Source of the DNA: Erigeron canadensis
Taxonomy: Eukaryota > Streptophyta > Magnoliopsida > Asterales > Asteraceae
Direction of reading: 5' to 3'
NCBI RefSeq assembly: GCF_010389155.1
Contig: NC_057769.1
Coordinates: forward strand, 34,581,548-34,645,547
DNA: 64,000 bases
A program made the translations under genes and the position numbers. Numbering within the stretch: the first letter of the stretch is position 1; each line of letters starts with the position of its first letter. Shown one piece after another: positions 4,187 through 57,414 of the stretch. The notes under the pieces are model-generated. The model saw only the letters and a program-made list of their open reading frames with translations. It was not told the DNA's origin and made no database searches.

Positions 4187-4776
4187 GTAAATTCATGATC
4201 TAGGATAGATTATTGATGTTTTGACTATGAAAATTTGACGATTACAAGTCGTTATAATGCCCAATGATTGACTTGTTCTTCACGTGAACGGTACCATGAA
4301 CTAACTAAGGATTGAATCTTTGATTTTTTATGATTTGGACTGAAATTGGACATAAAATTAGATTAACTAATGTTTATACACTTTAAATCTTTCAAAAGTT
4401 CACATTAACATGCTTAAAATCAAGATTAATTGAAGAATCTATGGCTCGTTTACTATTCACACGAAGCAGATGACGAACATGAAGAACATCCACTTCTTGT
4501 TCATCTAAATTGAATTCGTTTCGATTTCTTAGTTTTTCTGGGCATACGCAAACCATAAAAAAGTCCACGATGAAGTTTTTGATCAATTTTCACATCATAT
4601 GGAGATGTTTATGTCCTTTGTGTTCTGGGTTCATGCTTGGTTCGTGCTGACGTCACGACGAAGGAGATCCTCCTCGTGATGACGTCATCACGAAGCAGAA
4701 TGACAAAACCCTAACTTTTGTTTTTTGTTTATTCTAACTTTTCGTTTTCTTGTCGTTTTTGTTTGATTTTATGCAG
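4187..4776 (+). other. Candidate 5'-UTR intron of the extra coding region
   Basis: A donor TTGTAG|GTAAATT at 4186/4187 and an acceptor TTTTATGCAG|GT at 4776/4777 bracket 590 bp of T-rich sequence that ends two bases before the ATG at 4779. This is a typical plant leader intron next to a start codon. The intron contains two more TGACGTCA sites, at 4648-4655 and 4680-4687. The second is the centre of a perfect 20-bp palindrome (4674-4693). Splicing is inferred from consensus only. Confidence 0.45.
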
Positions 4777-4778
4777 GT

Positions 4779-7227: not shown

Positions 7228-7652
7228 TGCTATTGATTTTGTATTTTTGATGATAATTGATTATGTTTCATAATGTGTGTACATTAGATTACTTGGGTTA
7301 TATTAACAATTTAAAGTGTTAATCAAAGTGTTATTTAGCTCAGAATAGTGATCAAAGAGTTATTCTGTTCGGCTTAACATATTGACAGTGTAATTTTAAA
7401 ATACTCGAGTGATGAAGAATAATAATTATAAGATAAATATGAATGTGTTACATTATATTTATGATATAATATTATTGTTGTAAGTTAAAATAGATAAAGA
7501 TTATAAGATAGATATTAATGTAATTGTTACATTATATTTATGATATAGTATTATTTATTTTAATTTCTTTTATGTATTTATACTATTTTATTATGTCTTG
7601 ACTTATGATTTATGTTCTTTATCTTTGTATATGTAAATCGTTTGAATTGCAG
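7228..7652. other. AT-rich spacer or intron with a local direct repeat
   Basis: Between the two coding segments lies 425 bp of AT-rich DNA. A block reading TTACATTATATTTATGATAT occurs twice (near 7448 and 7527) in a longer imperfect direct repeat. The 3' end has a good splice acceptor, so this may be an intron, but no strong donor pairs with it in frame. Confidence 0.4.
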
Positions 7653-8751
7653 ATAAGCTTCAAACAATAGGTGCATTGGACGATCTTGATGTTGAAGAAG
7701 ATCTAGAAAGTATCGATGATGAAGATTTGGAAGAAGGAGAGTTCATTACTTCGGAAGCTGATAGACAAAGGTTGCTTGAGACACCTTATGACTTTGATCG
7801 TGTCTTTAATGAAGATGAAGTCATTCAAGTTGAACCAATAGCTGAAGTAGAACATCTCAATCTTAATTCAATCAGAGATAGTCCAGATGAACCTAAGAAT
7901 GCTGCAAGGTTGAGATTTGCTGTATATGCAAACATAGTCGATGAAGGACATGACAATATTTTTGATCTATACTGGAATATAGATGCTACACGAGAGGTTG
8001 ACCTTGGAAGATTTAATATACCTCCGGTGCAGCAAGATCATGAGTTTATTGTAGACTGATTCCAGGTTATAGAGGACATACTGGTTTGATGATACGTGAT
8101 ACGTATAAACCATCAATGTTTTGGGAGTTTGTCTCAGACAAGGATGCACCCAAATACTTCTCAGTGATACAAAGTTGGTTCTATAATCACAGAATCAAAT
8201 TGTTTATTATCAAGAGAAAGGAGGGTTGCCAGTACATGTCAATAAGTCAAAGACACTTCCACTCTCTCAGTGATTCTGATATGATAGATTTGGGAAGACA
8301 CTGGTTCGTTAATCTTCAGAGCAATGGACTTGCAGATTTCTACTGGAATAGATTCAGAGACGAAAGAATTAAGTATTTCAGTGATAGAGGTCTGAAGCCA
8401 GAAGAAAGGTTGATAAAGCCAACACCTTTGAAGAAGATTAAGAATTCAGATGGCACATTTCGGTTTGTCCAGAAAAGAATTAAATGTGTTAAGAAGGTTC
8501 CCGCTATCAGATGGGATCAAGATATGCTGACAGAGATGACATTTTGGCAGATAGATATCAAGTCAGGCGAAGCACAGATGTTTGTTGATGATTCAAAGAA
8601 ACAAATGTTGCTACGCATGTATGATCCAATGCAGGTTGTCAATTTGTCAAGAGGTGATCAGAGAAGACTTTTGGATGCAACTTGCTCAGCTGTGGATTTT
8701 TGGAGAGTTGAGGAAAGACGCTATTGCAACATTCTCGCTCATTGTTTATAA
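7653..8751 (+). pseudogene. Second segment of the extra coding region, frameshifted
   Basis: A canonical acceptor (TTTGAATTGCAG) ends at 7652 and opens a frame reading KLQTIGALDDLDVEED. It is an acidic segment that ends at a TGA at 8057. The neighbouring frame continues without a gap (IPGYRGHTGLMIRD from about 8059, then FWEFVSDKDAPKYFS) to 8751, so a single-base frameshift splits one ancestral protein of about 360 residues. I do not recognise a domain. It lies between the aORF-like region and the putative LTR, so it is most simply part of the same retrotransposon transcript. A matching donor in 7228-7600 is not obvious. Confidence 0.5.
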
Positions 8752-9859: not shown

Positions 9860-10160
9860 GCACGTTGTGGCAGTGAGATAGTGGGGGTGATAGGTCAAGT
9901 CATAGAGTATGATAGCCAAATGCCTTAGCCATACGGGCTTCGCACTCTAATTTAAAAATTCGTCGAAAATATATCGAATGACATCTCTAATGAAAGAGCA
10001 TGAAATTTTAAGAGCACCCATACAATTTTTATAATTTATTGATATACGGTTTTTGAGATAAAAATTTTTGAATGAATTAGAGGAATAAAATAATCTATAG
10101 ATGAGAGAAAAAAAATGAGTAGTTGAGATTTGAGGAAAGAGAAAAAAATGAATGGTTGAG
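9860..10160 (-). repeat. Partial copy of the long-inverted-repeat MITE family
   Basis: It shares, in reverse orientation, the core seen at 18.7-18.8 and 48.9-49.0 kb (on the - strand GCGAAGCCCGTATGGCTAAGG, then TGACCTATCACCCC). It is followed by one arm (ATCTCTAATGAAAGAGCATGAAATTTTAAG, 9988-10017) that matches the arms of the copy at 18.4-19.2 kb. Only one arm is clear, so this is a truncated copy. Confidence 0.55.
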
Positions 10161-10621
10161 ATTTAAAGTTATTATAGGTATATTATGTAGAGATGTTTAA
10201 ATTATTGAATAAAGAATAGAGGTATTTTGGATAGTTCAAATTATTATTTTTTTTAAAAAAAGGACAAAATACTTTATAAGATAGCATTAGATATTAAATA
10301 TATATATATATATATATATATTTTATCTAACTACAATAATCAAATTACATCTAATTTGATCGTACCACTAGCTATCACATTAAGTTCTATCTATTGTTTT
10401 GTTCATATTTGTAATATAACTATTATATTTATCACCTTTCAAATTTTTTTTTTTAATTATAATAATACTTATGATATACCATAATAGAATTGTATAACTT
10501 TGTCATGTACTTTCAACTTGTTGGAAAAAAAAATCTGTATACATTGAGAGGCTATGTATTCGTATATGCCAAGAGTCTTCATTTATAAACTTATATATAT
10601 ATATTATATATATATAAATAT
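10161..10621. other. AT-rich flank
   Basis: AT-rich sequence with (TA)n runs near 10303-10321 and 10590-10615. No gene or element end is seen before the left end of element A. Confidence 0.5.
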
Positions 10622-10665
10622 GGCATTGGGTAACACCACCAGGTCAACGGTCAACCCCACCAGGG

Positions 10666-10691
10666 TATTAGCGGCGACGTCGCCGCTAATA
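10666..10691. repeat. Element A left terminal palindrome
   Basis: A perfect 26-bp palindrome with half-site TATTAGCGGCGAC and axis between 10678 and 10679. Another copy with the same centre has its axis exactly 100 bp further in. Two imperfect copies lie at the right end (14935-14970 and 15044-15079). Confidence 0.9.
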
Positions 10692-10713
10692 GTGGGACCT
10701 CCGACAGCCCGAC

Positions 10714-10843
10714 GACGTTGAATGACAGCCATTTGGGCGATGAAAACCAAGCGCCACGTCACCGGTATTAGCGGCGACGTCGCTGCTAATACTGGTGACG
10801 TGGCGCTTGGTTTTCATCGCCCAAATGGCTGTCATTCAACGTC
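10714..10843. repeat. Element A 65-bp-arm hairpin
   Basis: Two 65-nt arms (10714-10778 and 10779-10843) are inverted copies with only two mismatches and no loop. The axis is a copy of the element's GCGAC|GTCGC palindrome. The arms (starting GACGTTGAATGACAGCC) are not otherwise terminal sequence. Element B has the same arrangement at the same relative place (19521-19605). Confidence 0.92.
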
Positions 10844-11197
10844 CAGTAACATCATGTAGTACCATACTGGTCTGCGACTTTGGGAATGATTATGTGCCAT
10901 ACCGAGCAATACTTTCCATACATCGATAGGATAAAATGATGGCAGCCCATCATTTTCGAATACTATATATTACCAACTAAATCACATTCATTTTCAAATG
11001 TAAATTTCTGAAAAAAATTTCTTGAGTATAGATATATATTTTTTCAAGACTTTGTGTATCTTTCTTTAACAGTATTTGTAGTTGCTGGTATTGTGTATCT
11101 TTCTTTTTCAAGCGTTTTGTTTATATATATATATATATATATATTTTGAGTATAGATGTAAATATATATATATATATATATAGTATGGACACCATAT

Positions 11198-12067
11198 GTG
11201 ACACAAAAATTATATGGATTCGGCGATACGTCCCAAGACCATTGGCTCAACTATGACCCACCATATTCCAACTTAGTTGATGACATCTTCGGGCCACCAC
11301 GTACACAATCTAGAAATGCACTCATATATGAATCAAGGCAGGCGCAGGTGTCAGATCCAGAGTCAGAGGCACAATCATCGGCCAGTTGGGTTGGGTATGT
11401 TGCGGAACCGTATAACGCCAGTCTTTCCAAAAATTACGCTTGGGTACTAGGTGAGATACCATCGTACTTAAGGCCTAACGTTGTAGGCGCACAAAATGTC
11501 AAAGGAGACGGTAACTGTGGATTTCGAGCTACCGCTGTAGCTTTGGGGCTAGATGAGGAGATGGGTGCAGAGTGGGTTCGTACGCAGATGCTCGCGGAGT
11601 TTGAATCTGACCTCAATCGGTACATGCAAATGTTTGGGCAAACAGAGGGCAACCAAATGTTGTCGGCGCTGCGAACATCTTATTATGGAAGAAGCCGGCC
11701 CATAGATCATTGGATGAGTAAAGTTTGGTTCCATATCCTCCTGGCCAATAAGCTGGGTATAATAGTCAACTGCGTTAGCCTACGTGACCCCCGCACAGTA
11801 TTTCCGATGCATCACGGCTTAGATCAGCTGTTATTCAAACAACCGATAAGTATTGCTCTCATAAACGACGAAACCCATTTTGTTGCAGTGAAATTAGCAA
11901 GCGATTACCCAATGGCCTACAAGAATCCGGAATGGGAATTTCACGCAACCGATCCTGCACGTCGACTAGCATTAACGTACGCAAATCAAGAAAATGCGTA
12001 TCAAAATTGGTTATACGCAAACATACCAAGAGTACCACCAGGCCCTCCTATTGTAATAAACGATTAA
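11198..12067 (+). CDS. OTU-like cysteine protease in element A
   Basis: An open frame of up to 289 codons. The catalytic core is clear: GDGNCGFRA (Asp and nucleophile Cys, near residues 104-112) and a His in ETHFVAVKL near residue 228, the arrangement of OTU deubiquitinases. It aligns through its length with the element B OTU protein (for example AVALG, MLAE, PISIAL, DYPMA), at my rough estimate one third identical. The listed start is a GTG and no in-frame ATG precedes the core, so the true 5' end is probably a splice junction or was lost with the transposase exons. Expected activity: cleaving ubiquitin-type conjugates. A role in transposition is unknown. Confidence 0.82.
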   Translation: MTQKLYGFGDTSQDHWLNYDPPYSNLVDDIFGPPRTQSRNALIYESRQAQVSDPESEAQSSASWVGYVAEPYNASLSKNYAWVLGEIPSYLRPNVVGAQNVKGDGNCGFRATAVALGLDEEMGAEWVRTQMLAEFESDLNRYMQMFGQTEGNQMLSALRTSYYGRSRPIDHWMSKVWFHILLANKLGIIVNCVSLRDPRTVFPMHHGLDQLLFKQPISIALINDETHFVAVKLASDYPMAYKNPEWEFHATDPARRLALTYANQENAYQNWLYANIPRVPPGPPIVIND

Positions 12068-12362
12068 CGCAAGTCTATGTTTAATATAGGTTGTTTGTAT
12101 GTATACTTTTTTTATTGTATATATTTTTTATGTATTTAAGTTGTTGTTCCAAAACAAGTTTCAATCAACAATTTTTCATACTTTTCTGTTGTACATACAT
12201 TGATTTTATAATACTTTTCTAAAGTTGATTCCAATTATTTTTTTATCAACAAATGTATAAAAACAAAAAAAATACAAATGATTATATCACGAAAATCAAG
12301 ATTACAAAAGTAAATCACACTTCAGTTAAACGATGAATACAAACAATAAAAGAAAGGGAAAA

Positions 12363-13711
12363 CTAATCACTTTCATCATCACTATCATTATCACTATCAC
12401 TACCCAACCGCTGTGTGGGGGCCCGTGACGTGCTAGGCCCAGCATGGGATGATGACGTGCTAGGTCCGACCTCGAATGATGACTGGCTCCAAGGGCTACC
12501 CTGCGCGAACATATCATTGACGTTAAAGGACGGTGACTGCTGGGCTGGGAAGGGTTGCTCTATATCCTCTGGGAGGGGGACATTCAGTCCACGTGTTCCC
12601 CTAACCACACGCCCAACCACACGAGTATGTCCCGATCGGGTCCCTAAAGCGTCCACATATGTCTGCGTAGGCAGGGTATTGGGCACTTGGGAAAGTCTTT
12701 GGTGGGTATCAAGAAGCCGCTCCTGTAGCACATGAAAATTAAGTTAATAATAACTAAAAATTATTTATATGTAATATAAATATATTCCAAAAAAATATAT
12801 TTTTTCCGGATTTGTGCAAGATCTTACATAAATGGGTCTAACTGCGTCCTGCACCATCCCATCTCGTCTCGTGTGGGCCCGCAAATAAAACTCAGGCGGC
12901 TCCTCATGTCGCCCATCATTATCTTCCTGTATATACATTAATCAAAGTTATATATTTGTATGTGTATCTCTGTATAGATATATGTTTACATACGTGGATA
13001 TAAATAATTACGTATAACTTACAGCGTAACGTCATTCACGCTGAGCGTATGACTGCCGACCGTGAGTACTGACAAAATTATTTTGTTGTTGCCTGTTTGT
13101 CGTGTTTCTTTGGGCAGCAATCATCCGGGGCTCGCTGGTCCAGTAACCCAGTAGATAACTCCACACCTGTGGAGGCATCCCGTACGGAGGTTGACCCTCC
13201 AGTTCTGCCAGCCTCTGGGACCCACCCCTGTCAGTGAACCAAGTCTTCTTGAATTTTGCTTTTTTATCCCTGTAGATCTTCAGGGCATCCTGACGAATCA
13301 TCCTGGTCACGGCCTCTCGTAACGGGTGATTTTCTGGGTGACCTAAATATGGTTCTAAGTAGAACCGTCTCTGCAATAGTACCAAGTAATAGTTAGCATC
13401 TACCATATTTTTTATATGACGTATTTAAATAGTAAAAAAAAATTGTTTTATACCATAAGCCAGTCAGTAAGTCCATCCTTGATGGGCTGGGGCACCTGAT
13501 TCCACAACTCGTAATTATGTGGGACGGTAGCGACATAGGTCCTCAAATAGCTCTTGTACCACTTGGCGTGGTCCCCGATTGCCTGCCACCTACTAAGATC
13601 GTTATTCAACATAAGCGAGATTCGGCGTCCCGAATTCTGAAACTCGCGCTCCAGATCGTTGTTAGCAGCAGCAGCTCTCCCTGTGCTAATACCTGCAAAA
13701 CAAAATAAAAT

Positions 13712-13748
<37 letters not shown>

Positions 13749-13881
13749 AAATATATACCATATATTTATATGCAACGTACATTAATATATACTTACCACC
13801 TGTACGCCTACAACCCCATTCGGGGTTCCACCCCCAATTTGGAGGGTCGTTGCCACCATCTCCGCCGTGAAGTGCAGCCAT
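12363..13881 (-). pseudogene. TNP1-like (Transposase_24, Ptta/En/Spm) gene of element A, five exons, one nonsense codon
   Basis: My model on the - strand: ATG at 13881; exons 13797-13881, 13454-13692, 13023-13370, 12828-12926, 12363-12722 (85, 239, 348, 99, 360 nt). All introns have GT-AG ends and the phases fit a 377-codon frame. Exon 1 is His/Gly/Asp-rich (MAALHGGDGG). Exon 3 holds the family signature: YRDKKAKFKK, TDRGG, then TTNRQQQN and STHGRQSYAQ, as in the En/Spm-associated Ptta/Transposase_24 proteins. The last exon is Ser/Pro-rich with an acidic tail. A TGA at 13032-13034 (probably from CGA) interrupts exon 3 ten nucleotides before the donor, so this copy is likely dead. In En/Spm, related proteins bind subterminal DNA. 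A similar role here is an inference. Confidence 0.82.
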
Positions 13882-14499
13882 TTTAACCTACATCAGTTAT
13901 ACAATTTATAAAATAATATAAACAAACATAAATGTTATAAAAAAAGGTGCAAATTAAATTAACATATTTTGGACACAAAATTGTTTTTCAAAATTACTAT
14001 ACCTAAAATGCCCACATTTTTGCAACTTTTTTTCAAACCTTAGTTTCTAACATTAATACGAACCTAATAAAAACTATATTAATGAACTATAATAAACAAT
14101 AATTATAACTACAAATGTTTTCCTAAAAATTAATGAATTTCTAAAAATCATATCATTCCTAACTATAATAACATAAATAATCTTTCCTAACTATACTACT
14201 ATAACATTTCTATAACTAATACTTTCTAACATATATTTACTAACACTTGTTTTTTAACATAGATTACGTAAAATAGAGTAGTTAATAACTGATATTAATA
14301 TTTTTTTCCCTAAAATAAAACTCCATGTATTTATTTACTATATTATCATTATGATTATTATTATTATATACTTACATATAATACTAGTTACCATACATGA
14401 ATATGACCAAGCATAACATGAGTACAACAAAAATATTTGTTAACATTAACATATATTAAAATAAAAACAATTATTTAAAAGGTAAATGAGTGTTACCTC

Positions 14500-14720
14500 G
14501 TCTGAAAAATGGTTCACCGGAAAAATGAGTACAACAAAAAACGTGGTGTCTGGCTGGCCGGAAAAAAGGTAGTCGCCGGAAAAATAAAGCGCCGGAGTTC
14601 GCCGGAAAACTAAAAAATCTGGTTTGGCGTATATCAGTGGAAAATAAGTTCCCCGCAAAACTAGTTGCCCGGAAATCTTTTTTGCCGGAAAAAAGTCGCC
14701 GCTAAAACCCAACCTGAAAA
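14500..14720. repeat. Element A right subterminal GCCGGAAAA repeats
   Basis: The motif (G)CCGGAAAA recurs about seven times within 200 bp (from CACCGGAAAAATG near 14516 to TTGCCGGAAAAAAG near 14683). It lies upstream of the TNP1-like gene, between its start and the right end. Element B has the same motif (GGCCGGAAAATATGG, twice) in the equivalent place. Confidence 0.6.
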
Positions 14721-14934
14721 TAGACTCCGGGACGTCGGAAAACGTGGGTCGTGTAAAAATTGTTGATAACGAGGATGAGGGGATAGATGGCCGGATTTTG
14801 TGAGTTAAACGAATGGAGAAGAAAATAAATTACGGAGGAAGGGAGGAGGAGTTCGGAGGAGAAGGAGATGAATAAAAACAGGAGGAGATGAATGGAGAAG
14901 ACGTGGTTTATATCGACAAGCGCAAGTGGGGGGA

Positions 14935-15079
14935 CCCACTATTTGCGGCGACGTCACCGCTAATAGTGGGGTCCACACCCACGAGATTCGAGAATGGTTA
15001 CAGACATCACGTGAATGGTTAGAGACATTGACTGACAGAGGGGCCCACTATTTACGACGACGTCGCCGCTAATAGTGGG
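14935..15079. repeat. Element A right-end palindrome pair
   Basis: Two 36-bp imperfect palindromes (14935-14970 and 15044-15079) share the outer half-site CCCACTATT and the GAC|GTC centre. The outer one runs into GGGTGGTCGGGTTACAC, the complement of the shared terminal core GTAACCCGACCACCC. Confidence 0.88.
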
Positions 15080-15130
15080 TGGTCGGGTTACACCTTTTCC
15101 CCTGATCGGGTTACGCGCTTCGATAAATAT

Positions 15131-16354
15131 ATATATAACGCCATATCTACCAATATATAAATATATATATAATGCCAAGATTTTTTGATATGATAGAAAG
15201 GTACGTCTTATATCCTCCACACTGGGATAATCAGTGCGGTTTTCTCGAAGTGGTACTAACCACAACCACTTAGCCACAATATGTATTTGACTTTTTTTTT
15301 CAAGAGTATGATGTACGTATTACGAGTAAAAAGTGGTCCCATACTCCCATGTATCTTTTTTAAATGTAGCTTTTTCTGTGTAGTATGTAATTGTTACTCA
15401 AATTTTAGACTAGTATCAAATGTATACATTAGAGATGCCAGAGTACAAAATGTATAAATAATACCAATTTAGCAATAGATGTTATGATATTGTCATCATG
15501 TGAGCATCTGAGCCGCTGCATGTTATAAGTTAGAAACTTGCCAAATGCAAGTGCGATAAACTATATGTGTGAGGATGGTGACTTACCAAACATGAGTTTT
15601 ATATGGTATGCGTTTTGGATAACAAGGCAGTAAATCGGACTAGAGGGCTCTCACCCATTCACTATTTTATTTTATTTTTTTATAAAAAAGGTATATACAT
15701 GGTAATCTAGGTTTGGGTCGAAAATAGAGTGAGTACAAAAGGTCTAGATCGTAGTGAGGGTCACAATAGACCACAAGGAAGCTTCGCGTCGCCTAGTAAA
15801 TGAATAAGGCATATCAAGAATGGGACCATGGTCAGGCCAGGTACACCCCCAAAACTAGTTTGTGGTTCACATCAAATGGTCCATGCCTCACTACATGTCC
15901 ATTTCACAACAATTACATTATATATACATATTTTTCTTTTAATACAGTCAAAAATGTGAATACAAATAGCAAGTACTTCCCATCTTGGGAATAATATAGT
16001 ACTTTCCAAGTTGTATTTTCAAGTGGTTTTAGAAAATAACAAGTGCTTCCCATTCTATTATCAATGTTCATTTGTTTTTATAGCTAATCGACTTGATAAT
16101 TTAACAAATAGTAAGTGACTTTTATTTTATTTTTACTAAGTGACCGCTTAGTTATATGTAGATGCTATTTTAGTATGTAAAATGTTTTTTTTTTGTTAGT
16201 GCTAAAGGGACGCCTAAAAATTACTCGTACTTGATAAAGAATTTATATACATTTAAATATACGTCGCAGACACACTTAAAAAGCTAAAAACATACTACAA
16301 GAGTGAGTATTAGAAAGCAATACTAAAAAAGGATTCATATCCCAACCAAGCTTT
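15131..16354. other. Intergenic, no gene seen
   Basis: AT-rich sequence with no convincing coding frame, element end or RNA gene. Confidence 0.5.
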
Positions 16355-16570
16355 TTTGGTATATAGACCACACCAACTATATGCAGCGATAGTCGCTGCA
16401 AATAGTGCGGACCCCCTTGTCTGTAATGGCAAACCTGACAAAAAAATAACGGCCCCTGTCAGTAATCGCTGCAAATAGTTTGATATGAACAAAAACACCA
16501 GTATTTGCAGCTAAAATCACTGCAAATAGTCTGGTTTAATTATCAAAAAAGTGGTCAGGATACCAGCCGC
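16355..16570. mobile_element. Small non-autonomous element with a third palindrome type
   Basis: A palindrome with half-site ACTATATGCAGCGA (16376-16406) stands near the left side. A degenerate one with half-site ACTATTTGCAG (about 16500-16531) stands near the right. A half copy (TCGCTGCAAATAGT) lies between. The outer flanks read GGTATATAGACCAC and, on the - strand, GGTATCCTGACCAC, an imperfect terminal inverted repeat. The layout copies elements A and B at small scale, but the palindrome is different. No clear target duplication. Confidence 0.5.
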
Positions 16571-18399
16571 CTACTAAAATTATATAATGAATGTTGAAAG
16601 AATCATTACATATGGGTACATACATTAAAAACATTAATGATATTCATCATTGCAAGCTCTAAATTGAGAAATATACAACAACATATGCCTAAACGGTCCA
16701 AGACTAATAACCTTTGTTTTTGCAATAGTAGCATGATCATGAAATTGAGACCATCAAAAGTCCAAATATGACATCAAATAAACCTGTATTTGGTAGCTTC
16801 CAACAGCTTGATAACTTTGTTGGATGCCATTAACTAGAAAAAAAGATGCACATTGTTTATCCTAAATTGCTTGTAATGATTTTTCTTGCAACGAACTACT
16901 TCCGAGTTGTAATGATAAGTAGTACCTCTCGGTAGCTGTTAAAACTGACCGTCTATCAATAATCGATTTGGTCAACTTAGTTCAATTTTTTTTTTTTTTT
17001 TGGGTTTTGTATTCATTTTCAATATTTACTAAGAAAGCTCGTAGCACAAACTTTTATAGTTTCTGCGTAAGATAACGAGTAGATTGTTGTTATTATAGAT
17101 TTTTTACTATTATTAACGATTTTAGAAACTTTTTGAGCACTCTTTGATAGCTAGCGACATTGACCATACTTTTTTACCTCTCAGACCAATAAAAATGATA
17201 ACATCTTTTAAAATATTTTCGTTGGGTCGAATTGAATGGACTTATAGTCCAGGCCATCTCTACTTTAGATTAATTCTGCCCTTGATCTCAAAGTAGTCAA
17301 TTAAGACAACTAATAAGGTGGGGATAAACATGTCCATGTGTTCTTACATAAGCTATTACATTATGTTATACGGCGAAAACAAACACCGCAATCTTTTTCT
17401 ATGTCGACAAAATATTCATTTTTAAATATGCGCATCATAAAAAGGACCACATGCATTTAGCCATTTAGGTTAACAAATATCTAAAGTGTATCTTCATAAA
17501 CATCTATACCATTTATTAAAAAAAAATACCCTCAATGTTGAAAGTTACATGGAACAATGTCTAATATGCTTTTCTATGTAATATTTTCATCTATCACCTT
17601 TAAATTATGTAATATTTTCACTTACACTGCCCCTTAACATTAATGATTAAGTTACACTACCAATCCTTTATCTTTTAAAATATTTCCATTGACCATTTAT
17701 ATCAATAATCTACACCAATCGACGCATCATCTACTACTAACAATTTCCCCTACTATCACATTGTTGTCCCATGACCACCGCCGCATTGCGCAGATAACAT
17801 GCTAGTGTAACTTATCACCGAGTATATATAGTATTAGCAAATTATCTGAATGAAAATAACCAAATATCTGAATGAAAATAACCAAATAATATAATGTTAT
17901 CTATACTATATTCATGGGACAATTTATATAATTTTTTTTTTGTTTTTTGACAAGTATACATGGGACTAGACAAATATATGTATTACTTAAATAATTATTT
18001 TATGATCATTTATGACATAGTAAATGAAAAGTTTGAAATAAGACTATTTCGTAAGATTCTCAAAATTTTTTTTTTTTAACGACAGAATTGTATTAAATAA
18101 ATTAAATGACCATCTAACAAGATGCTAGAGACCAAACATTACAAAAATCAGATGCTAGATGCTCAGAATTATTATTATTATTTTTTTTGTTTAATAGGAA
18201 ACATATGACATAAATATAATGTGTTGGAGATTCAAATTCGACACGAAGTTCCTTTAAACATAGAGGGAGGTGATGTACTCGTATTTAACATATAGACATA
18301 TAGAATTTTGATTTTTGTAATGCATGTTAATATGTTATGTGATTTGAGTAAGGGTTATTTACCAATTCATAAATAAATAAAAAAATGAGAAAACAATTC
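16571..18399. other. Intergenic, no gene seen
   Basis: AT-rich sequence with homopolymer runs. I found no supported gene, RNA or element boundary. Confidence 0.5.
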
Positions 18400-19170
18400 T
18401 GGGTCACATATTTCTCTACTTTTCTCTCTCTTTAATTAGATTAAAAAATTTATCTAAATCATTCAAAATGTTTTATTTAACAAACCGCAAATCGTTATAT
18501 GAAAAAAAATTATGGTAGTCTTAAAATTTCGTCGTCTTTCATTAGAGATGCAATTCAATATATTTTTGATAGCTTTTTAATTTTTGTTTTTTATTGCCCT
18601 TATACTTGTGTACATACACATATGTAGAATCTTTGTTTTCACATGTAAATTAGTAAATAACAATCTTCACACAGCAATGAAGGTTAAGAGCGGAGCCCGT
18701 CAATCCATGGCGAAGCCATGGTGGTCAAGGGCGGAACCCGTGGGTCCATGGCGGAGCCATAGCGGCTAAGGGCGCGTTAGGTAGATCACCCATCATCGAT
18801 CACCCCTATGACCTATCAACCTCTATAACTTATCACACTATAGCCTATCACCCTCAATGATCTATTAACTCCACCAACTTTAGTTTATGAATTTCCATAA
18901 GGTCAAAGTCCGTTCCGAATCACAATTTTTTTCAACTTAACATGTGTAGGTTATGTGTAAGTATCAAAAAGAAAAAGAAAATTAAAAAGTCATCAAAAGT
19001 ATATCAAATTGCATCTCTAATGAAAGAGGACGAAATTTTAAGACTATCCATACTTTTTTTTTCATCTAATGATTTACGGTTTGTGAGATAAAACATTTTG
19101 AATGATTTGGATGATTTTACATATTTTATTTAAAGAGAGAAAAATTTGGAAAAAAAATGAGTGATTTAAA
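18400..19170. mobile_element. Long-inverted-repeat MITE (foldback-like), copy 1
   Basis: The left arm (about 18411-18565) and right arm (about 18975-19165) are inverted copies over roughly 150 bp. For example TCATTCAAAATGTTTTAT and CTTTCATTAGAGATGCAA on the left recur on the - strand of the right arm. The core (18690-18840) is GC-richer and contains degenerate repeats of GGCGGAGCCATAG / GGGCGGAACCCG, then TTAGGTAGATCACCC and CCCCTATGACCTATCA. The same core is at 48.9-49.05 kb. No coding capacity. Superfamily uncertain (MULE or foldback). Confidence 0.75.
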
Positions 19171-19458
19171 ATTGGTTTTTCATTTTTTTTATTCATGAAT
19201 TTTTAAGATAACTAACCCCTGTATGATTTATCAATATAAAGTTGTAAAAACAATTTTCTTTTTAATGATTATATGTACTACATTTTAACCAGGATTGTTG
19301 TGAAAAAAACATTCCATTTCCTCGTCAGATTGCCAACTCAACACAGTTTGACCAAAGGTAATCAAATCGTGAACGTCTGACAAGCACATGTTTGATAAGA
19401 TCAAATTTTAATTTCGTTTGTGTATTATTATGGGGACGTGTAGGCCGACCACCCCTTA

Positions 19459-19497
19459 TGTAACCCGACCACCCCTTTTGGAGCGACAGTCGCTCCT
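19459..19497. repeat. Element B left terminal core and palindrome
   Basis: TGTAACCCGACCACCCC is followed by GGAGCGAC-a-GTCGCTCC (19480-19496). The first 25 bp of the element (from 19434, GGACGTGTAGGCCGACCACC) repeat part of this core, so the extreme end looks like a partial duplication of the terminal repeat. Confidence 0.85.
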
Positions 19498-19520
19498 AAA
19501 GGGGTATTAGGATACGACAA

Positions 19521-19605
19521 CATTTCTGCACGATTCGAATCTACCACCCCTTTAGGAGCGACAGTCGCTCCTAAAGAGGTGGTAGGTTCGAATCGTGCAG
19601 AAATG
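19521..19605. repeat. Element B 42-bp-arm hairpin
   Basis: Arms 19521-19562 and 19564-19605 are inverted copies with two mismatches around a single central A. The centre is the element's own palindrome (AGGAGCGAC-a-GTCGCTCCT). The outer arm sequence (CATTTCTGCACGATTCGAA) is not found elsewhere in the element's ends. It lies about 170 bp upstream of the transposase ATG, so it may be transcribed in the 5' leader. Confidence 0.92.
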
Positions 19606-19775
19606 TTTCTGTTTCCCCGTGACGATTCATTCTTTATAAGTTCAATCATTTCATATTCATTCTATATAAGTTCAATCTCATTATTCAATCGTTTTGATAT
19701 TCGATCGTTTTCATATTCATTCATTTTGATTTATTCGTTTTCATTTATTACTGTTAAGTGTTTTTATTATTTTAG

Positions 19776-22340
19776 ATGGATTGCTTGGAGGAAATTTTCT
19801 TAAATCCAAATGCGCCGGAAGGTGTAAATGACGAGTTTGTGTACGAAGAGCCCGATGACGAATTTGAATCCCCAGATGTCCGTGATGAATTTGATTACGA
19901 TCACGATGTTTTTATACCAAGGAGGTATGTATATAATCCAACCTTTTCATTTTTTGTGTTGTTATTTTGTGAGTAATTGTATTTTGTTATTATTCATTAG
20001 ATTTGTTGCTATAAAAGTATGTAAGAAAACTAATTATTAAAACTACGGATAAAAAATTGTTTATAAAAACATATTAAAAAATGTACGTAAAAATGTAGAT
20101 TAACAAAAGCTATTAAAAAATTGTTAAAAAAAAAAGTGTATAAAAAGTGTATTATAAAAAAGTATATAAAAGTGTATTATAAAAAAGTGTATAAGAAAGT
20201 GGATTATAAAAAAGTATATAAAATAGTGTATTAAAAAAAATGTATTATAAAAAAGTGCATAAAAAGTGTATTAAAAAAAAGTGTATAAAATATTTCAGGT
20301 GTTTGACACACACATAGATTTGGTAGACTGGGCTCAAAGAACGACAAAGGAGCTTGGTTATGTGTTAGTAACACGAAGATCAAATGTCACAAAAGGCGGA
20401 GAAGTTAAAAAGGTGGTCCTTATTTGCAACCGTGGTGGAAAAAAAGATAAGCGGTCAACCGGGGCACCCAAAGGGAGTACCAAAATTGACTGTCCATTCA
20501 AATTGGTAGGCCGTCTGACAAAGGACCATAGTTGGTGGGTTGAAGTTATAGATCACCGACATAACCATCCATCAGCTCGTAATTTGGAAGGTATTGCGTA
20601 CGCAAGACGACTAACCGATGTTCAAAAAGAATTTGTGGACGAAAAGGCGTTGCTAGGTTTTGGGCCAAATAGCATAAGGGACCAATTGAAGGATGCATTT
20701 CCCGGCATCTTGACTCGTTCACAAGACATTTCTAACTACCTGCGGCAACACCGGCTAAAGCACGCCCAACAACGAGGGGAAACTCGAATGCAGGTGAAAT
20801 AAGAAACATACCTGCATGTGGATCGTATAACTATATGTTTATTTTTTTTAAAAATACGACTTCCTTATACTTTGGTTGTTTACCCGTTGCAGATCGTGCT
20901 CCAATTACTATCTGACCATCAGTACACGTATCAGTACACGACGGATAGCAAAACCGGATGTTTGACCAATCTCTTTTTCGTACATCCTACATCACTTGAC
21001 ATATGGCGTGCATTTCCTTGGATCATTGAAATAGACGCCACGTATAAAACCAACGTTTACAACATGCCGCTTGTTGAGATTGTGGGTGTCACTCCAACTG
21101 GCAAGACATTCAGCATTGCGCACGCACTTATTGAAAATGAGCAACATGCGGCATACACATGGGTGTTACAGTGCTTGAGGTCGACGCTCGAAGAAGGGTT
21201 CGTCGTGCGTGTGGCACTCACTGATCGGGATCTGGCCCTCATGAAAGCGGTTAAGGATGTGATGCCGGAAACGAAGCTGATACTGTGTAGAATACACATT
21301 TGGAGGAATATTGAGTTACATGCCAACCCATCGTTTGGGTCAAAAAAAGATTATGGTTCGTTTAGACACCGGTGGGATAAACTCGTAAACTCAATCACGG
21401 TTAAAGAATACGCAGAGAATGAGCAGCGGCTAAAAGTATTCTTGGCAGATAAACCAAGTATATACATCCCGTCTCCATACTGTTTTTATGATAACGCTTA
21501 CGATGTAACCATGTAGCTAAATCACTTTTTATTTTCCTGCAGATCTTTATAAGTATCTACAAATACAGTGGCTTGCCTCGTACAAGGAGTTATTTGTGTC
21601 ATGTTGGGTCGACCAACACCGCAACTATCGTAACTACACTACCAACAGGGTTGAGAGCGAGCATTCTTTGCTGAAGTCAGTTATGCATCAAAAGCGGCTT
21701 ACGTTCCACAGAATCGTTGAATGTGTTAACTCTGTTGTCAGCGGGCAATACACCGAAATAAAGGGGTCACTGGAACATTGCAGGCAGTACAATCAAAATA
21801 AACACAATTATCCCTGTTTAAAGGATTTGCTCGGTAAAGCCTCCCATGTAGCCTTGCAAATTATGGTTGACGAAATTGATCGATTGAAAAATACAGTAAA
21901 AGGGGACGTGTCAAAGTGCGGGTGTACGGTATGGGCTAGTTGTGGCTTGCCATGTAGTTGTCGACTTCTAACATACATGCAGGAACGTAAGTACAGTTCA
22001 TTCAATACAAATGGTCCATTTTACTTAAAAATACTTAATGTAATATTTTTATTCCTGCAGGAAGGCGTGTTCAAGAATATGAGATAGATGCATTTTGGTG
22101 CAGGCTCGATATAACCCCGTCCACCTGCCTGCCTGGAAATGTGAAGAAAGACTCGGATGATGACGAGCCTGTTGAGGCCTTTTGTGGCGAGGTTACTGCT
22201 GCCTTGGAACGACAACCCATAAAACAAAGGAAAAGCTTGATGTCAAAAATAAAGGACCTCATCTATCCGGGTCGGTCCAAAATCAAGGACCCGGAGGTCC
22301 AAAAGAAAACACGTGGTAGACCTGTTGGGTCAAAGAAAAA
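19776..22340 (+). CDS. FAR1/MULE transposase of element B
   Basis: Mutator-like transposase in about five exons: 19776-~19929, 20299-20793, 20893-21457, 21543-21986, 22061-~22340. The 3' three introns have good GT-AG sites and consistent phases; the first donor is ambiguous by a few bases. Exon 1 is acidic. Exon 2 is the FAR1-type WRKY-GCM1 zinc-binding domain (TRRSN..., CNRGGKKD, IDCPFKLVG, DHRHNHPS). Exon 3 has the first two catalytic Asp (EIDATYK and LTDRDLA) and CRIHIW. Exon 4 has the Glu region (NRVESEHSLLK) and a SWIM-like finger (CGCTVWASCGLPCSC). The last exon ends in a basic AT-hook-like KTRGRPVGSKKK. Intron 1 is filled with degenerate AAAAAGTGTATAAA repeats. All catalytic residues appear present. 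Confidence 0.85.
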
Positions 22341-22427
22341 GTTATATTATTATAGTCTAGCAAATTATTAATTGTTAAATACTATACGGGTATACATCTA
22401 ACTTAATTATTCATTCATTCATTGCAG

Positions 22428-23669
22428 ATGCCAGACTTGAACGTATCACCTCCAATGCCACCACCACCAAAGATGAAAAAGTCGAGGTCCGTGCACGTGA
22501 CAACACCTAAGTATCCGGATACCGCACCAGACTCAGGCTCATGCTACAGAGACTTTCAGGCGGCGAGACACAGTGACCATGTGCCCACGCAGTCACGTTT
22601 CGCGGAGCCTGACACCAAATTACGGGAGGACACCCGTGATTATATTGATGAGTTGATCCGATCGTCACAATTTTCAGCAGCAGGGCCGAGTAATGAGCCT
22701 ACAACCGAACCCTCATTCTTAGATCAGTTGTTCGGCGCAGCCGAACCCGCGTACTATCCTGTGCCACCAACAGCACCAACAGGCGTAGTGGATCAGTTCT
22801 TCAGTGCCGATACTTATTTTCCTGCAGGTCCTAGCACTCCGATGCCAGCTGCACCATCATCGTACTTTGATTTGTTCAGTACGCCCACACAACCTTCGAT
22901 GCCACCAGCACCATCACCTCCGATGCCACCAGCACCATCACCATCACCAATATCTCCCATATCAGCTGAGCAGCAATTGGCTGCTCTACCAGTACCACCA
23001 CCTAACACTCGCCCACTGCAGACGACGGGTATAAAGGGTTACCTTGATGACATACCGAATGTATTTAGACCATACGTCAAGGGGATTATTAATGTCAGTG
23101 GTGATGGCAACTGTGGATTCCGGGCACTTGCTGTTGCATTGGGGTACGATGAAAACGAAGGTTACGAGTGGACCCGACTACATATGTTGGCCGAGTATGA
23201 AAACAACAAACAATTCTACGATGAACTAACAAGATGGGGACAGGTTGAAGCGAGGTTTTTTGAGGGGTTATCAAGGTCTTATGTAGGGGTGTTTAGACCA
23301 ACTGGCTACTGGATGCACATGACTATGGGGGCCATGTTGTTGTCCAACAGGATGGGTATAGTAATTCACTGTTTATCTACTGCCGCCAGTTGGACTTCGT
23401 TCCCATTTACCAATGGTCCTGATGAGATGCCTAGGAGAGAGCCCATATCAATAGCATTAGTACATGGTCACGGTCACTATATCATGGTGCAATTGGAAGG
23501 TGACTACCCGATGGCCCCGGAGATCGCATATTGGGTACAGGATCGTGTAAGGCCTCCCGTGAGCAAATGGAAAGATTTGTACCGACACCGCCAGTTAGCC
23601 TACAATAGATATATAGATGCAACAAAACCTCCTCCCATCTATATGGGAACAGTGGACTCATCTGATTAG
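22428..23669 (+). CDS. OTU-like cysteine protease of element B
   Basis: ATG at 22428 stands directly after an acceptor (CATTGCAG). The frame runs to 23669 (413 codons). The N-terminal half is Pro/Ser/Ala-rich with a repeated PSPPMPPAPSP. The OTU core follows with SGDGNCGFRA (catalytic Asp and Cys near residue 230) and the His in HGHGHYIMVQL near residue 350. In MULEs such a domain could be fused to the transposase. Here the most likely donor after the AT-hook (22340/22341) leaves two codon bases and does not join the OTU frame, so either another donor is used, the OTU is translated on its own from this ATG, or the junction is mutated. Confidence 0.82.
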   Translation: MPDLNVSPPMPPPPKMKKSRSVHVTTPKYPDTAPDSGSCYRDFQAARHSDHVPTQSRFAEPDTKLREDTRDYIDELIRSSQFSAAGPSNEPTTEPSFLDQLFGAAEPAYYPVPPTAPTGVVDQFFSADTYFPAGPSTPMPAAPSSYFDLFSTPTQPSMPPAPSPPMPPAPSPSPISPISAEQQLAALPVPPPNTRPLQTTGIKGYLDDIPNVFRPYVKGIINVSGDGNCGFRALAVALGYDENEGYEWTRLHMLAEYENNKQFYDELTRWGQVEARFFEGLSRSYVGVFRPTGYWMHMTMGAMLLSNRMGIVIHCLSTAASWTSFPFTNGPDEMPRREPISIALVHGHGHYIMVQLEGDYPMAPEIAYWVQDRVRPPVSKWKDLYRHRQLAYNRYIDATKPPPIYMGTVDSSD

Positions 23670-23978
23670 GATTGTAATAAAGTTTTTTGTTTTTTGTTAT
23701 GCCCGTTTTTTTGTTTCCTTTTTTTTTTATTAAAGAAAACTTGGGGTGTTACTTCGTAACTTTATCATCTTTTTACTTGCTATATTACTTTTAATAATAT
23801 AATAATACTACGAAATTTTGGGGTGTTACATCTTTGCAAATGGAATAGTCGACCATCATTACAAACAAACAGTACACAAATAATAAAAATGTCCATATCA
23901 AACACAAATAATAAAAATGTACATAACAAACTGTATTTATAAAAATGTCCATACTTCGTACAAATAAAAAAAGTCTAA

Positions 23979-25548
23979 TCACCCGGAATCGTCGTCGTCC
24001 TCACCGGCATTATCATCACCCACACCTGGTCCGGATACAGAGCATGTCCCACTAAAAAATCCACTCATATCCGACAAGCTACCAAATTCCCCTGATGGAG
24101 GTCCATAATGCGCCGATGTCCCACCCCATAACTGGCGGGGGTCGAAATACTCATCACCAGGCTGGTTCAAGTCAACATGGTAGCCGGAAGGTTGGGATCC
24201 AGAGGGGCCAGAATAGGATCCAGACGGGCCGGAGGAGGATCCTTCCGGAGGTCCATAATGTGGTTGCGGCAACTCAACAGGGAAATCATGGGATCCGAAA
24301 CCCCTGAGAATCCTCCCTAGTCCGCGCTGATGTCCCGATCGCGATCCAAACGCTTCCGGGAACAACTGGGTTGGAGGTGTCGGTGCAGGATCCTGTGAAT
24401 GTCTCTCCTGCGCAGCTTCCAGACGGGACTGCATATAAATAGTAAGGTAAGTTTAATAAATGGAGCAGTAATTAAAAGTAATTTAACTTAAAGTTATGTA
24501 TATACCGCAACTTCCGGAGGTTGTAGTCTGTGGGTTGCCGCCCAAGTCGACTCCCACGTGGGCGGTGGCCCCTCCTTCTTTTCGTTATGGTGCTTGGCCT
24601 GCAAACAAGTCAAATAATTAGCATTAAAAAAACACAAGAATTGTATACTTTTGTTAAAACCAAACGTACCAACGCCCGATCGTGGGCAAGAGAAATAGAT
24701 CGCCGACCCTGAGTCCCCACTGCCTGTTTGGACCGGTTTGTCTTGTTTGTCTCGGCCCGCTTGACCCGGTCATCCCTCGTATAGAAACGCAATAGTTTTC
24801 CCCACTCTTTCGGGTCCATACCAGCTGGCGGTGCTGTCTGCAGGGTATCTGCTGCGCCTACACCCCCCCCCCCCGTGCTGTAAAATGCTGAGATTTGAAT
24901 TTTGACTTTCTCTGCCTATATATGCTAGCTGCATCAGCACGGAAAGCCAGTTTTGCTGCCTTCCGGGTGGGGTCGTCCTCATCAAGCTCTAGGTACTGGT
25001 CCATCGCAAAATAGCGCTACATTGTTTAAAAATACAAGTTAGCATTTTCGGGGTTAACATTGTAAAACATATTAAGTAAAAAAATATAAAAAGAAACATA
25101 TTCTAACCTGTACTTCCTCCAAGATATGGTCCCTCATAGACTCAGGCACATCGTCCCATGACTCGTAGTATTGGGGGACATCTCCGATCAACGAGCCTAA
25201 CAAAGATTTGTACATAGCCCCGTAGTCCCCGATCGACTGAAAGGTCTTTGATTTGTAGTCGAAGTACATGGGTAACGGGCCTCCATTTTTCTTGAAGGCA
25301 GCCTCAAGTTTTAGATGTTTGGCTGCCCCTCTTGGTGGTGGTGGTGTTTTCTTCGAGCCTACAAAACCAATAAGTAACAATAACATAAATAAGTTACTTT
25401 AAACGATAAGAATACAATTATTTTAATGCATAACTAAATTTAATGTAAAGTCAATTTTCTTACCGCTGTCTTTGCAGCCTGATATTTTCTTCCACCACGA
25501 TCGGTGCGGATCCCTCCCATCGCCGTCGCCGCCGTGAGCTCCTAGCAT
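23979..25548 (-). pseudogene. TNP1-like (Transposase_24, Ptta/En/Spm) gene of element B, five exons, one frameshift
   Basis: Model on the - strand: ATG at 25548; exons 25464-25548, 25108-25358, 24670-25016, 24506-24598, 23979-24428 (85, 251, 347, 93, 450 nt), all with GT-AG introns. Exon 1 (MLGAHGGDGDGRDP) matches the element A exon in length and phase. Exon 3 has YRQRKSKFKS, TARGG, then ETNKTNRSKQ and GTQGRRSIS, the Transposase_24 signature. The last exon is Gly/Ser/Pro-rich with an acidic end. Exon 3 is one base off a multiple of three because of a 12-C run (24863-24874 on +). Removing that shift restores the A-like phase, so it is a recent slippage mutation or a sequencing error. Likely role: DNA-binding accessory protein for element ends (inference). 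Confidence 0.83.
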
Positions 25549-25900
25549 TTTTCTTATATCTACATAAATAATACACGTATTATAATACTTTTTATATCAA
25601 CTTTTTTAACTACTTTTTTTAACTTATTTTTTATATGACTTTTGTACTACTACTTTTTCAATATATGTTTTAATATCTTTTTATACTTATGTTTTAATAC
25701 CTTTTTTATTTATACATTTTCCTACCATTTTTCTTATATCTACATAAATAATACACGTATTATAATACTTTTTATATCAACTTTTTTAACTACTTTTTTT
25801 TAACTTAATTTTTTATGACTTTTGTACTACTACTTTTTCAATATATGTTTTAATATCTTTTTATACTTATGTTTTAATACCTTTTTTATTTATACATTTT
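25541..25900. repeat. 180-bp tandem duplication
   Basis: 25541-25720 is repeated at 25721-25900 with few changes (both contain CATTTTTCTTATATCTACAT). It starts at the first codons of the TNP1-like gene and extends into its upstream side, so the leader or promoter of that gene was duplicated. Confidence 0.9.
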
Positions 25901-26246
25901 TATATTTTCTAATACAAACATTTTCTAGTACAAACTTTTATAAACTTTTTTTTAAATATATTTTTTATATACTATGTAATACACTTTTTTTACATTTTAT
26001 TTTTTACACTTTTTTACAAACATTTTACATAACAAAAACAAGAACAACAACAAGAACAACAACAAGAACACAAGAACAACAATACATTAAATCTATGGGC
26101 GTATACAATACGTTAAATCTATGGGCATATAAGATCGATCCTAATACATCTATGCATAACAAGAATAACATCAAACTAATACATATACTATATAGCAAAT
26201 TAATAGATACGAAATAAAAAAAATAAAAACTTACTTCAACGTTGGG

Positions 26247-26494
26247 TTTACGAAAGGGGTAACGACGGGTCGCTCCTAAAGCCTCACTGAAAAACTTGGT
26301 CGCTCCTAAAGCCTCACCGGAATATCTTGGCCGGAAAATATGGGGGAGAGGGAGGTTGGATCGGTTGGGGTTTACGAAAGGGGTAACGACGGGTCGCTCC
26401 TAAAGCCTCACTGAAAAACTGTGTCGCTCCTAAAGCCTCACCGGAATATCTTGGCCGGAAAATATGGGGGAGAGGGGGGTTGGATCGGTTGGAA
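26247..26494. repeat. 124-bp tandem duplication with palindrome half-sites
   Basis: Units begin at 26247 and 26371 (TTTACGAAAGGGGTAACGAC) and are nearly identical. Each unit contains two GTCGCTCCTAAAG half-sites of the element's terminal palindrome and one GGCCGGAAAATATGG. These half-sites lie about 250-500 bp inside the right end. Confidence 0.9.
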
Positions 26495-26572
26495 TGGAGA
26501 AGAGAAAGGAGATTGGAATGGAGAAACTGATGAAGAAGCAGGGGATGGATCGGTTTTTATTTATTCGATGCA

Positions 26573-26704
26573 CCCCTTTAGGAGCGACTGTCGCTCCTAA
26601 AGAGGGGGTTTGACGGGTCAACGGTCGAACGGGTATATGCATAGATATCCGCGAGCAATAAATGTATCGACCCTTTAGGAGCGACTGTCGCTCCTAAAGA
26701 GGGG
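26573..26704. repeat. Element B right-end palindrome pair
   Basis: Palindromes at 26573-26607 and 26671-26704, each CTTTAGGAGCGAC-t-GTCGCTCCTAAAG with CCC/GGGG flanks. The outer one continues to GGTGGTCGGGTTACA, the inverted terminal core. The central base is T here and A at the left end, as expected for an inverted pair. Confidence 0.9.
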
Positions 26705-26756
26705 TGGTCGGGTTACAGAATATTCCGTGGTCGGGGTATGTGGCCTGTTATTATGG

Positions 26757-31973: not shown

Positions 31974-32460
31974 GAGGGATCACAGTACCCTCATGGTTCA
32001 CTTGTGATCCTCTCACTCATGGTTCCTCTAGCCATGGATGCATAATTCACAATAGATGTACTAAAAACAATTAAATAAACAAAATATCACTTCTTAAAAA
32101 TATGGACAATAAAGACTAGACTACAAACAGCATATGCAATACATGTATGGCTGGGGAACATAATTGGAGGTTAAATTGGAAATGACTAAATGAGGCCCGA
32201 CTAAATGACTAAATTGATTAAAAGTAGGCTATATATAGCCACGTTCCAAAAATCTGTTCATTATTACGATTAAATAAATGAAAAGCATGTGAATTCCATT
32301 ATGAGTCTTAATCTGTCGTGAATAGAAGTTATTTCACAACATTAATCTCATACCGTCAATGATCGATGAAAATCTGGCAAAATATGAGACTCGGCCCCTC
32401 TAATCCTCCTAATTTCAGTACCTACATTAAACAGTATAAAGTTCTTTTTAAAAAAAAAAA
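31974..32460. other. Intergenic, no gene seen
   Basis: No supported gene. The right end runs into an A-tract at the border of the long-TIR element. Confidence 0.5.
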
Positions 32461-57060: not shown

Positions 57061-57080
57061 ATATATACGTTGGGTCAATT

Positions 57081-57414
57081 GACCACATCATGTTGAAGTT
57101 GTTTATCCATGAGTGAAAAGACCACCATGTTGAAGTTGTTTATCCATGAGTGGTAAGACCACCGTGTTGAAGTTGTTTATCCATGGGTGGAAAGACCACC
57201 ATGTTGAAGTTGTTTATCCATGTGTGGAAAGACCACCATGTTGAAGTTGTTTATCCATGTGTGGAAAGACCACCATGTTGAAGTTGTTTATCAATGAGTA
57301 GAAAGACCACCATGTTGATGTTGTTTATCCATGTGTGGAAAGACCACCATGTTGAAGTTGTTTATCCATGTGTGGAAAGACCACTATGTTGAAGTTGTTA
57401 GTCCATGTGTGGTA
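57081..57414 (+). repeat. 37-bp minisatellite, about nine copies
   Basis: TGTTGAAGTTGTTTATCCATG recurs every 37 bp, with GTGGAAAGACCACCA between. The units differ at a few sites. The motif TGG(A)AAAGACCACCA is partly self-complementary (TGG...CCA). Confidence 0.93.

Follow-up and report, generated by a model that had tools for sequence, protein, structure and literature searches.

The window analysed here, a 64,000-nucleotide stretch of the Erigeron canadensis genome (GCF_010389155.1, contig NC_057769.1, positions 34,581,548 to 34,645,547), contains two elements, A and B, which are best read as degraded members of one Mutator-type transposon lineage. Judging by sequence, this is probably a lineage of Mutator-like elements (MULEs) with an old, co-inherited module in the style of En/Spm that would bind the element ends. 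Complete members would join a FAR1/MULE transposase to an OTU protease on one strand and carry a convergent gene for a TNP1/Transposase_24-like protein. An earlier note on this DNA had proposed one element family combining a MULE transposase, an En/Spm-type accessory protein and an OTU protease; the combination is supported by our results, with DNA binding by the accessory protein as its putative part. The coordinates of all features are collected in Table 1.

Occurrence of the gene combination in the genome

We read 70 OTU loci, window B included: 30 B-type, 20 more distant and 20 A-type. The B-type loci are the best 30 of 101 listed matches (100 of 576 candidates scored), the distant loci are 20 of 55 distant rows chosen so as to vary widely in both length and identity (10 A-type, 8 C-type and 2 D/E), and the A-type loci are ranks 2-22 without L066 of 132 listed matches (131 of 350 candidates scored). 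All pairing, tree and selection results come from one genome and from samples that were partly chosen.

The earlier note had allowed that most copies might lack the TNP1-like gene. Instead, an antisense TNP1-like exon lies just downstream of the OTU exon in 62 of the 70 loci. It is present in all 30 B-type loci, window B among them, and the B-type loci with a full or nearly full OTU exon also have MULE exon 5 and TNP1 exons 3 and 5 (26/26). In the distant sample, 15 of 20 loci carry the exon (8/8 C-type, 2/2 D/E-type and 5/10 A-type). The A-type loci taken by rank have it in 17 of 20 cases, 13 with exons 3-5 and 4 with exon 5 only, while 3 have none. A-type palindromes, described below for the element ends, are found at most 1.4 kb away in all 7 ranked A-type loci without exon 3, and 4 of the 5 distant-sample loci without the gene keep them as well (L063 shows none), so that, among 12 A-type loci which have lost exon 3 or the gene altogether, 11 have palindromes nearby. 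Since gene-less loci keep the end palindromes, the losses resemble internal deletions, and these loci look like non-autonomous derivatives.

The order MULE, OTU, antisense TNP1-like gene is common to window B and to the representatives A2, A3, C, D and E. Around four genome loci with Transposase_24 (PF03004; L001-L004), no E. canadensis MULE-OTU or TNP1-like match was found within 1.5 kb, the sole match in that distance being a weak one to P0007 at L001.

Borders and gene content of elements A and B

The borders that had been claimed at 10622 for A and at 26747 for B were confirmed, as was the arrangement of an OTU exon on the forward strand of both elements, converging on a five-exon gene on the reverse strand. 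The ends of B were compared in 11 copies, including that of the window; both ends were recovered in 9 of them and one end was not found in 2. A 9-bp duplication, as reported before, does flank the window copy (TTATTATGG), but 7 of the 9 copies with both ends have 8 bp and one has 7 T. In the window copy, the conserved tip GGGGACG starts at 19432 and the duplication stops at 19433. Duplications of 8 bp were also found in A, A2 and D (for instance AATTTTTA in L060 and TTATATAT in L058, from group D), being ambiguous in C. Overall they range from 7 to 9 bp, mostly 8. Because these duplications bound the whole unit, the TNP1-like gene lies inside MULE-type units and not beside them.

Element A contains OTU and TNP1-like genes. 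Both elements had been called MULE-type; a MULE gene is present in B, but no MULE match was found in window element A. The MULE part is present in L066, a relative of A, and A is a probable deletion derivative. The flanks of A (10600-10621 and 15123-15160) are TA-rich, and C and D are likewise in TA-rich DNA. Just to the left of A and B there are related direct and inverted repeats of 70-136 bp that resemble miniature inverted-repeat transposable elements (9949-10084, 18502-18595 and 18979-19114).

The TNP1-like gene

The exon lengths given earlier for this gene, 85/239/348/99/360 in A and 85/251/347/93/450 in B, are exact, with GT-AG introns according to the splicing analysis. Intron phases had been described as the same in both. 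They are 1,0,0,0 in A, but B loses its frame at a run of 12 G in exon 3, and its later phases match those of A only when this one-base shift is ignored. In 7 of 7 elements, GTAAG marks the end of exon 1, in phase 1. Neither window copy is intact, B being broken by this shift and A by a stop codon at the end of exon 3. The stop is absent from all 12 readable copies of the 20 A-type fetched, and the E. canadensis proteins P0001 (A-type) and P0004 (B-type), neither of them full length, read through the defect sites. The closest proteins among the matches listed are from E. canadensis, with 95-98% identity.

With a Pfam cut-off of 28.7 bits for Transposase_24, the raw open reading frame pieces score below it (17.7 and 12.7), the spliced protein of A passes (45.1) and that of B does not (15.1); P0001 (38.5) and P0002 (33.4) are both over the cut-off. 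The Transposase_24 identity proposed for the two genes therefore stands for spliced A by its own score, whereas B is counted in the family by its similarity to A (34% identity over the alignment, with a common HGGDG N-terminus). NCBIfam returned nothing for P0001, P0002 and P0004, the structure matches of the TNP1-like model were weak, and a search of a plasmid collection gave no match. Three TNP1-like sequences of Tanacetum (P0011-P0013) start with HGGDGGG or nearly so and are located downstream of PF13952/PF13960 in the same predicted protein, being a possible CACTA-borne sister group. Domains that we equate with PF13952 and PF13960 accompany the CACTA transposase in the available part of a published survey (PMC8978399).

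The MULE and OTU parts

Pfam matches were obtained in B for the transposase (PF10551, MULE, 88.2 bits) and for FAR1 (36.1 bits). MULE matches were also found in 5/5 fetched representatives, in A2 only over residues 1-308. For the OTU region, Pfam scores remain under the cut-offs (C65 with 12.4 against 24.3 bits in A and B; OTU with 14.7 against 23.3 in P0015), but the predicted fold matches OTU deubiquitinases. In Foldseek, nearly all of the 50 listed matches to the OTU model of A are OTU domains (A20, DUBA, OTUD3 and others), 14 of 161 matches having E ≤0.001 (best 5.2e-5) with modest query TM-scores of about 0.3-0.46; the model confidence (predicted local distance difference test) is 73-95 by blocks over residues 91-290. 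The OTU identity given in the earlier note is thus carried by a predicted OTU deubiquitinase fold and not by the Pfam scores.

The motif GDGNCGFR is present in A, B and 7 of the 10 relatives aligned (from 120 listed), and a later histidine follows it in A, in B and in 5 members of this set of 7; the cysteine of the motif and this histidine are presumably the catalytic residues. P0016 and P0055 have variants of the motif, P0026 is degenerate, and P0023 and P0024 are without it. A MULE domain followed by the OTU motif also occurs in proteins of Taraxacum, Centaurea, Lactuca, Bidens, Aquilegia and Glycine soja. Since the MULE-OTU fusion occurs in other eudicots, only the TNP1-like gene with the end motifs is unusual.

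Palindromic motifs near the element ends

The motif GTCGCYSCTAA, allowing up to one mismatch, occurs 21 times in the window against 1.06 expected, and 20 of these copies are inside A or B near their ends. The groups have their own versions, all containing CG: TTAGCGGCGAC in A, TTAGGAGCGAC in B, TCCGCGGCGAC in C, which has the inner GCGGCGAC in common with A, and GATGGGGCGAA in D. These versions are related but distinct and often form head-to-head palindromes. In A, A2, B, C and D, 40 of 40 motif matches fall in the outer 700 bp (the tip of C is uncertain), with a control mean of 0-0.1 per element (50 first-order resamplings each). As the motifs were picked from the same elements, an excess over the control is expected; their confinement to the ends is not built in. 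In these five elements, the distance between the left tip and the start of the first motif is 47, 47, 46, 48 and 45 bp (B measured from 19432). On the left side of E there is a single D-like palindrome, and in A3 (L066) a left palindrome was looked for and none was found. Counts of the exact motif among the 11 copies of B are 0-3 for the left end stretch compared and 4-8 for the right one.

Ahead of the first palindrome, the tips contain repeated GTAACCCGACCA-like units (CTATTGACACC-like in D), with GGCA, GGGG or AGGG as tip letters. In A, A2, B and C, the best matches of one end to the other extend over 47-132 columns with 71-92% identity, and those of D are weaker; in B, the outermost bases match poorly end to end. 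Related but distinct palindromes confined near element ends are new here. The papers listed by a literature search for their letters had unrelated titles.

Selection and probable common inheritance

Ratios of nonsynonymous to synonymous substitution rates (dN/dS) were estimated by the Nei-Gojobori method and pooled over pairs that are not independent. For the A-type TNP1 gene, exon 3 had a ratio of 0.17 in 120 pairs from the core group and of 0.22 in 48 pairs that set it against the L057/L060/L065 lineages, and exon 2 gave 0.20 against the same lineages (9 pairs); where 3 pairs were compared, the ratios were 1.42 and 0.70 (exon 2) and 0.42 (exon 3). Exon 5, which encodes an acidic tail, had values of 0.55, 0.81 and 1.21. 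Exon 3 of C gave 0.31 (28 pairs). Between the two subgroups of B, the halves of TNP1 exon 3 had 0.45 and 0.70, exon 5 had 0.99, MULE exon 5 had 0.50 and OTU 0.62, and within the subgroups we obtained 0.08-0.67 for TNP1 pieces, 0.59 and 1.21 for MULE, and 0.82 and 0.51 for OTU. These ratios indicate purifying selection on the TNP1 core in A and C, less clearly in B, and weak constraint on exon 5.

The MULE parts of A2, A3, C, D and E are 37-52% identical to that of B. The MULE tree has the shape ((A,C),B),(D,E), with main forks at 99-100% and with Taraxacum, Centaurea and Lactuca proteins outside, the long branches of D/E and of these outside proteins meeting in it. The TNP1 tree, which is midpoint rooted and includes P0002 as a long branch, has the same shape (forks 97/94, 90/78 and 93/92), and the OTU tree is compatible with both, leaving the position of B unresolved. 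As D and E are near each other, the main groups number four, and the agreement of two four-group trees is supportive of co-inheritance but no strong argument when taken alone. A and B had been taken for a sister pair, which is wrong, since A groups with C in the MULE and TNP1 trees. The old and conserved partnership that had been postulated finds support within this one genome in the common order, the agreeing trees and the purifying selection, and the TNP1-like gene and the MULE appear to have been inherited together, with palindromes to match at the element ends.

Possible mechanism and alternative explanations

We suggest that the TNP1-like protein would bind the palindromes as a dimer, by analogy with TNPA/TNP1 on the subterminal repeats of CACTA elements. 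Once bound, it could pair the ends for the MULE transposase and/or protect them from silencing marks. For the transposase itself, the site of action would be the tips with their repeated units ahead of the first palindrome, and the OTU part might spare the transposase or chromatin from ubiquitin-dependent shutdown. We put forward only tentatively a broader idea, that end recognition is exchangeable across superfamilies: a MULE lineage would have taken a CACTA-type TNP1 together with its kind of sites, and protein and palindromes would then have co-diverged into several specificities, so that related families stopped cross-mobilising or sharing silencing.

The main alternative, itself somewhat doubtful, is that the protein acts mainly against silencing, as VANC does, binding its own motif arrays and removing methylation outside the excision complex. 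Each VANC protein binds short motifs in the non-coding repeats of the MULE family to which it belongs, and the two co-diverge, according to the accessible part of the source (PMC10398659); the motifs found here contain CG and differ between groups, as this explanation would have it. However, motifs near both tips, the first of them 45-48 bp from the left tip, suit end recognition better. A VANC-like role could be additional to the pairing of ends.

The accessory gene may also not be derived from CACTA elements; an ancient plant gene for a DNA-binding protein could have entered MULE and CACTA elements independently, or could have passed from the former to the latter. The TNP1 tree, with the Tanacetum and Deinandra sequences on long branches, allows either direction of transfer, but we consider this origin unlikely, since the domain has been published from CACTA elements across angiosperms (PMC8978399, in the part available) and no report of it in a MULE was among the papers that our literature searches listed.

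It is very improbable that the TNP1-like gene is captured cargo, passively copied and functionless, as in Pack-MULEs. MULEs often capture gene pieces (PMC6446971, in excerpt), both window copies are broken and exon 5 is weakly constrained. On the other hand, the gene has five exons, its start and the phase of its first intron are conserved, its core is apparently under purifying selection in A and C, it is at the same place in all groups read and its tree is like that of the MULE; passive cargo is disfavoured by order, trees and selection. That a CACTA element or part of one was inserted inside the MULE and hitchhikes there is hardly tenable: the domain is typical of CACTA elements and is found next to PF13952/PF13960 in the Tanacetum relatives, but position and orientation are constant in all groups, TNP2 (PF02992) is not among the Pfam matches of the 10 A and B pieces scanned, and the En/Spm-type ends and 3-bp duplications that the earlier note had considered possible around the gene did not appear, as no CACTA...TAGTG ends flank it in B and such words in A, the other element searched, fall in exon 5 or in the palindromes.

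Features of the window

Table 1. Positions in the window of the two elements, their genes and their end motifs.
Feature	Position	Strand	Basis or remark
Element A, 4,501 bp	10622..15122	.	right tip common to sibling copies, left tip to L060, 8-bp duplication
Target-site duplication of A, left, ATAAATAT	10614..10621	.	
Target-site duplication of A, right, ATAAATAT	15123..15130	.	
Left subterminal palindromes of A, TTAGCGGCGAC/GTCGCCGCTAA type	10666..10792	.	
Right subterminal motif copies of A	14942..15072	.	one more at 14695
OTU open frame of A, stop to stop	11162..12067	+	sequence and OTU fold match
TNP1-like gene A, exon 1	13797..13881	-	splicing
TNP1-like gene A, exon 2	13454..13692	-	splicing
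TNP1-like gene A, exon 3	13023..13370	-	splicing; in-frame stop near end
TNP1-like gene A, exon 4	12828..12926	-	splicing
TNP1-like gene A, exon 5	12363..12722	-	splicing
Element B, MULE-OTU gene on +, TNP1-like gene on -	19434..26747	.	ends set against sibling copies
Target-site duplication of B, left, TTATTATGG	19425..19433	.	
Target-site duplication of B, right, TTATTATGG	26748..26756	.	
Left subterminal palindromes of B, TTAGGAGCGAC/GTCGCTCCTAA type	19477..19574	.	
Right subterminal motif array of B	26269..26697	.	
MULE gene B, proposed exon 1	19776..19928	+	in-frame donor not the best-looking
MULE gene B, exon 2, FAR1 domain	20299..20793	+	Pfam
MULE gene B, exon 3, MULE domain	20893..21457	+	Pfam
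MULE gene B, exon 4	21543..21986	+	
MULE gene B, exon 5	22061..22340	+	with the GT donor at 22341, OTU exon out of frame
OTU exon of B	22428..23669	+	MULE and OTU in one protein in E. canadensis P0014
TNP1-like gene B, exon 1	25464..25548	-	splicing
TNP1-like gene B, exon 2	25108..25358	-	splicing
TNP1-like gene B, exon 3	24670..25016	-	splicing; 12-G run, one-base frameshift
TNP1-like gene B, exon 4	24506..24598	-	splicing
TNP1-like gene B, exon 5	23979..24428	-	splicing

Outside A and B, pieces resembling Ty1/copia-type retrotransposons are located at 585-1979 and 60563-62387, with frames judged by eye. A series of long forward frames at 4767-8751 is possibly an unrecognised mobile element, the three pieces tested having no Pfam family over the cut-off. 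An inverted repeat of 181 bp, 91% complementary and with arms 1,047 bp apart (32459-32639 and 33687-33867), is a candidate small transposon. Tandem arrays of 37-bp and 29-bp repeats are found at 57049-57455 and 58556-58772, and two to three diverged copies of longer segments, perhaps duplicated genes, at 38155-38457/46589-46924 and 40709-40941/45615-46371/53122-53353.

Comparison with known systems

The second gene places these elements beside MuDR of maize, a MULE in which mudrA and mudrB are convergent; the likeness is one of gene layout. To our knowledge, MuDR has no OTU domain. The function of mudrB is unknown, although it is apparently needed for integration, and mudrB, vanB and vanC are the accessory genes of MULEs named in the part available of one review (PMC6446971), which also gives 8-11 bp as the range of MULE target-site duplications. 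VANDAL elements of Arabidopsis (VANA, VANB and VANC) are similar in having accessory genes and non-coding motifs that diverge with the binding protein, as excerpts of PMC10398659 describe them. VANC, likened here by its description, differs in that its targets are non-coding tandem repeats, whereas most motif copies here form palindromes near both tips. Another plant MULE, MuTAnT of Medicago, has G-rich tips and inserts into TA repeats; with A and C in TA-rich DNA, the lineage described here may have a target preference resembling it, but MuTAnT has 9-bp duplications and a single transposase open reading frame (PMC4486113, in excerpt). ULP1 peptidases are joined to transposon proteins in both MULE and CACTA elements, and the portion of that report at hand describes no TNP1-like gene in them (PMC2528002).

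The closest parallel for the accessory gene is found in CACTA elements (En/Spm, Tam1 and Tgm), which, in the parts available of PMC2613891 and PMC7139988, also combine a Transposase_24/TNP1-like accessory with short direct and inverted subterminal motifs that vary from family to family. In En/Spm, TNPA binds the subterminal repeats and both TNPA and TNPD are needed for transposition, and the pace at which such repeats change in step with the protein reading them is stated as an open question (PMC2613891, in excerpt). The layout found here is of the same kind, with a single accessory gene and inverted motifs not far from either tip. Unlike CACTA elements, however, the lineage described here has a MULE-type transposase instead of TNP2, an accessory gene that converges on the transposase gene, duplications of 7-9 bp instead of 3 bp, and tips that are not CACTA. 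The earlier note knew of no description of such a combination, and no report of a TNP1/Transposase_24-like gene in a MULE was among the papers listed from the literature searched, most subscription journals being outside it. The same kind of partner is seen here in another superfamily, with several related protein-palindrome pairs in one genome. Two questions can thereby be put to the test, namely whether an accessory module for end binding can pass from one DDE superfamily to another, and by what route new specificities evolve. A function is also suggested for the second genes of other MULEs, which are poorly understood, and the palindromes provide a marker for non-autonomous relatives.

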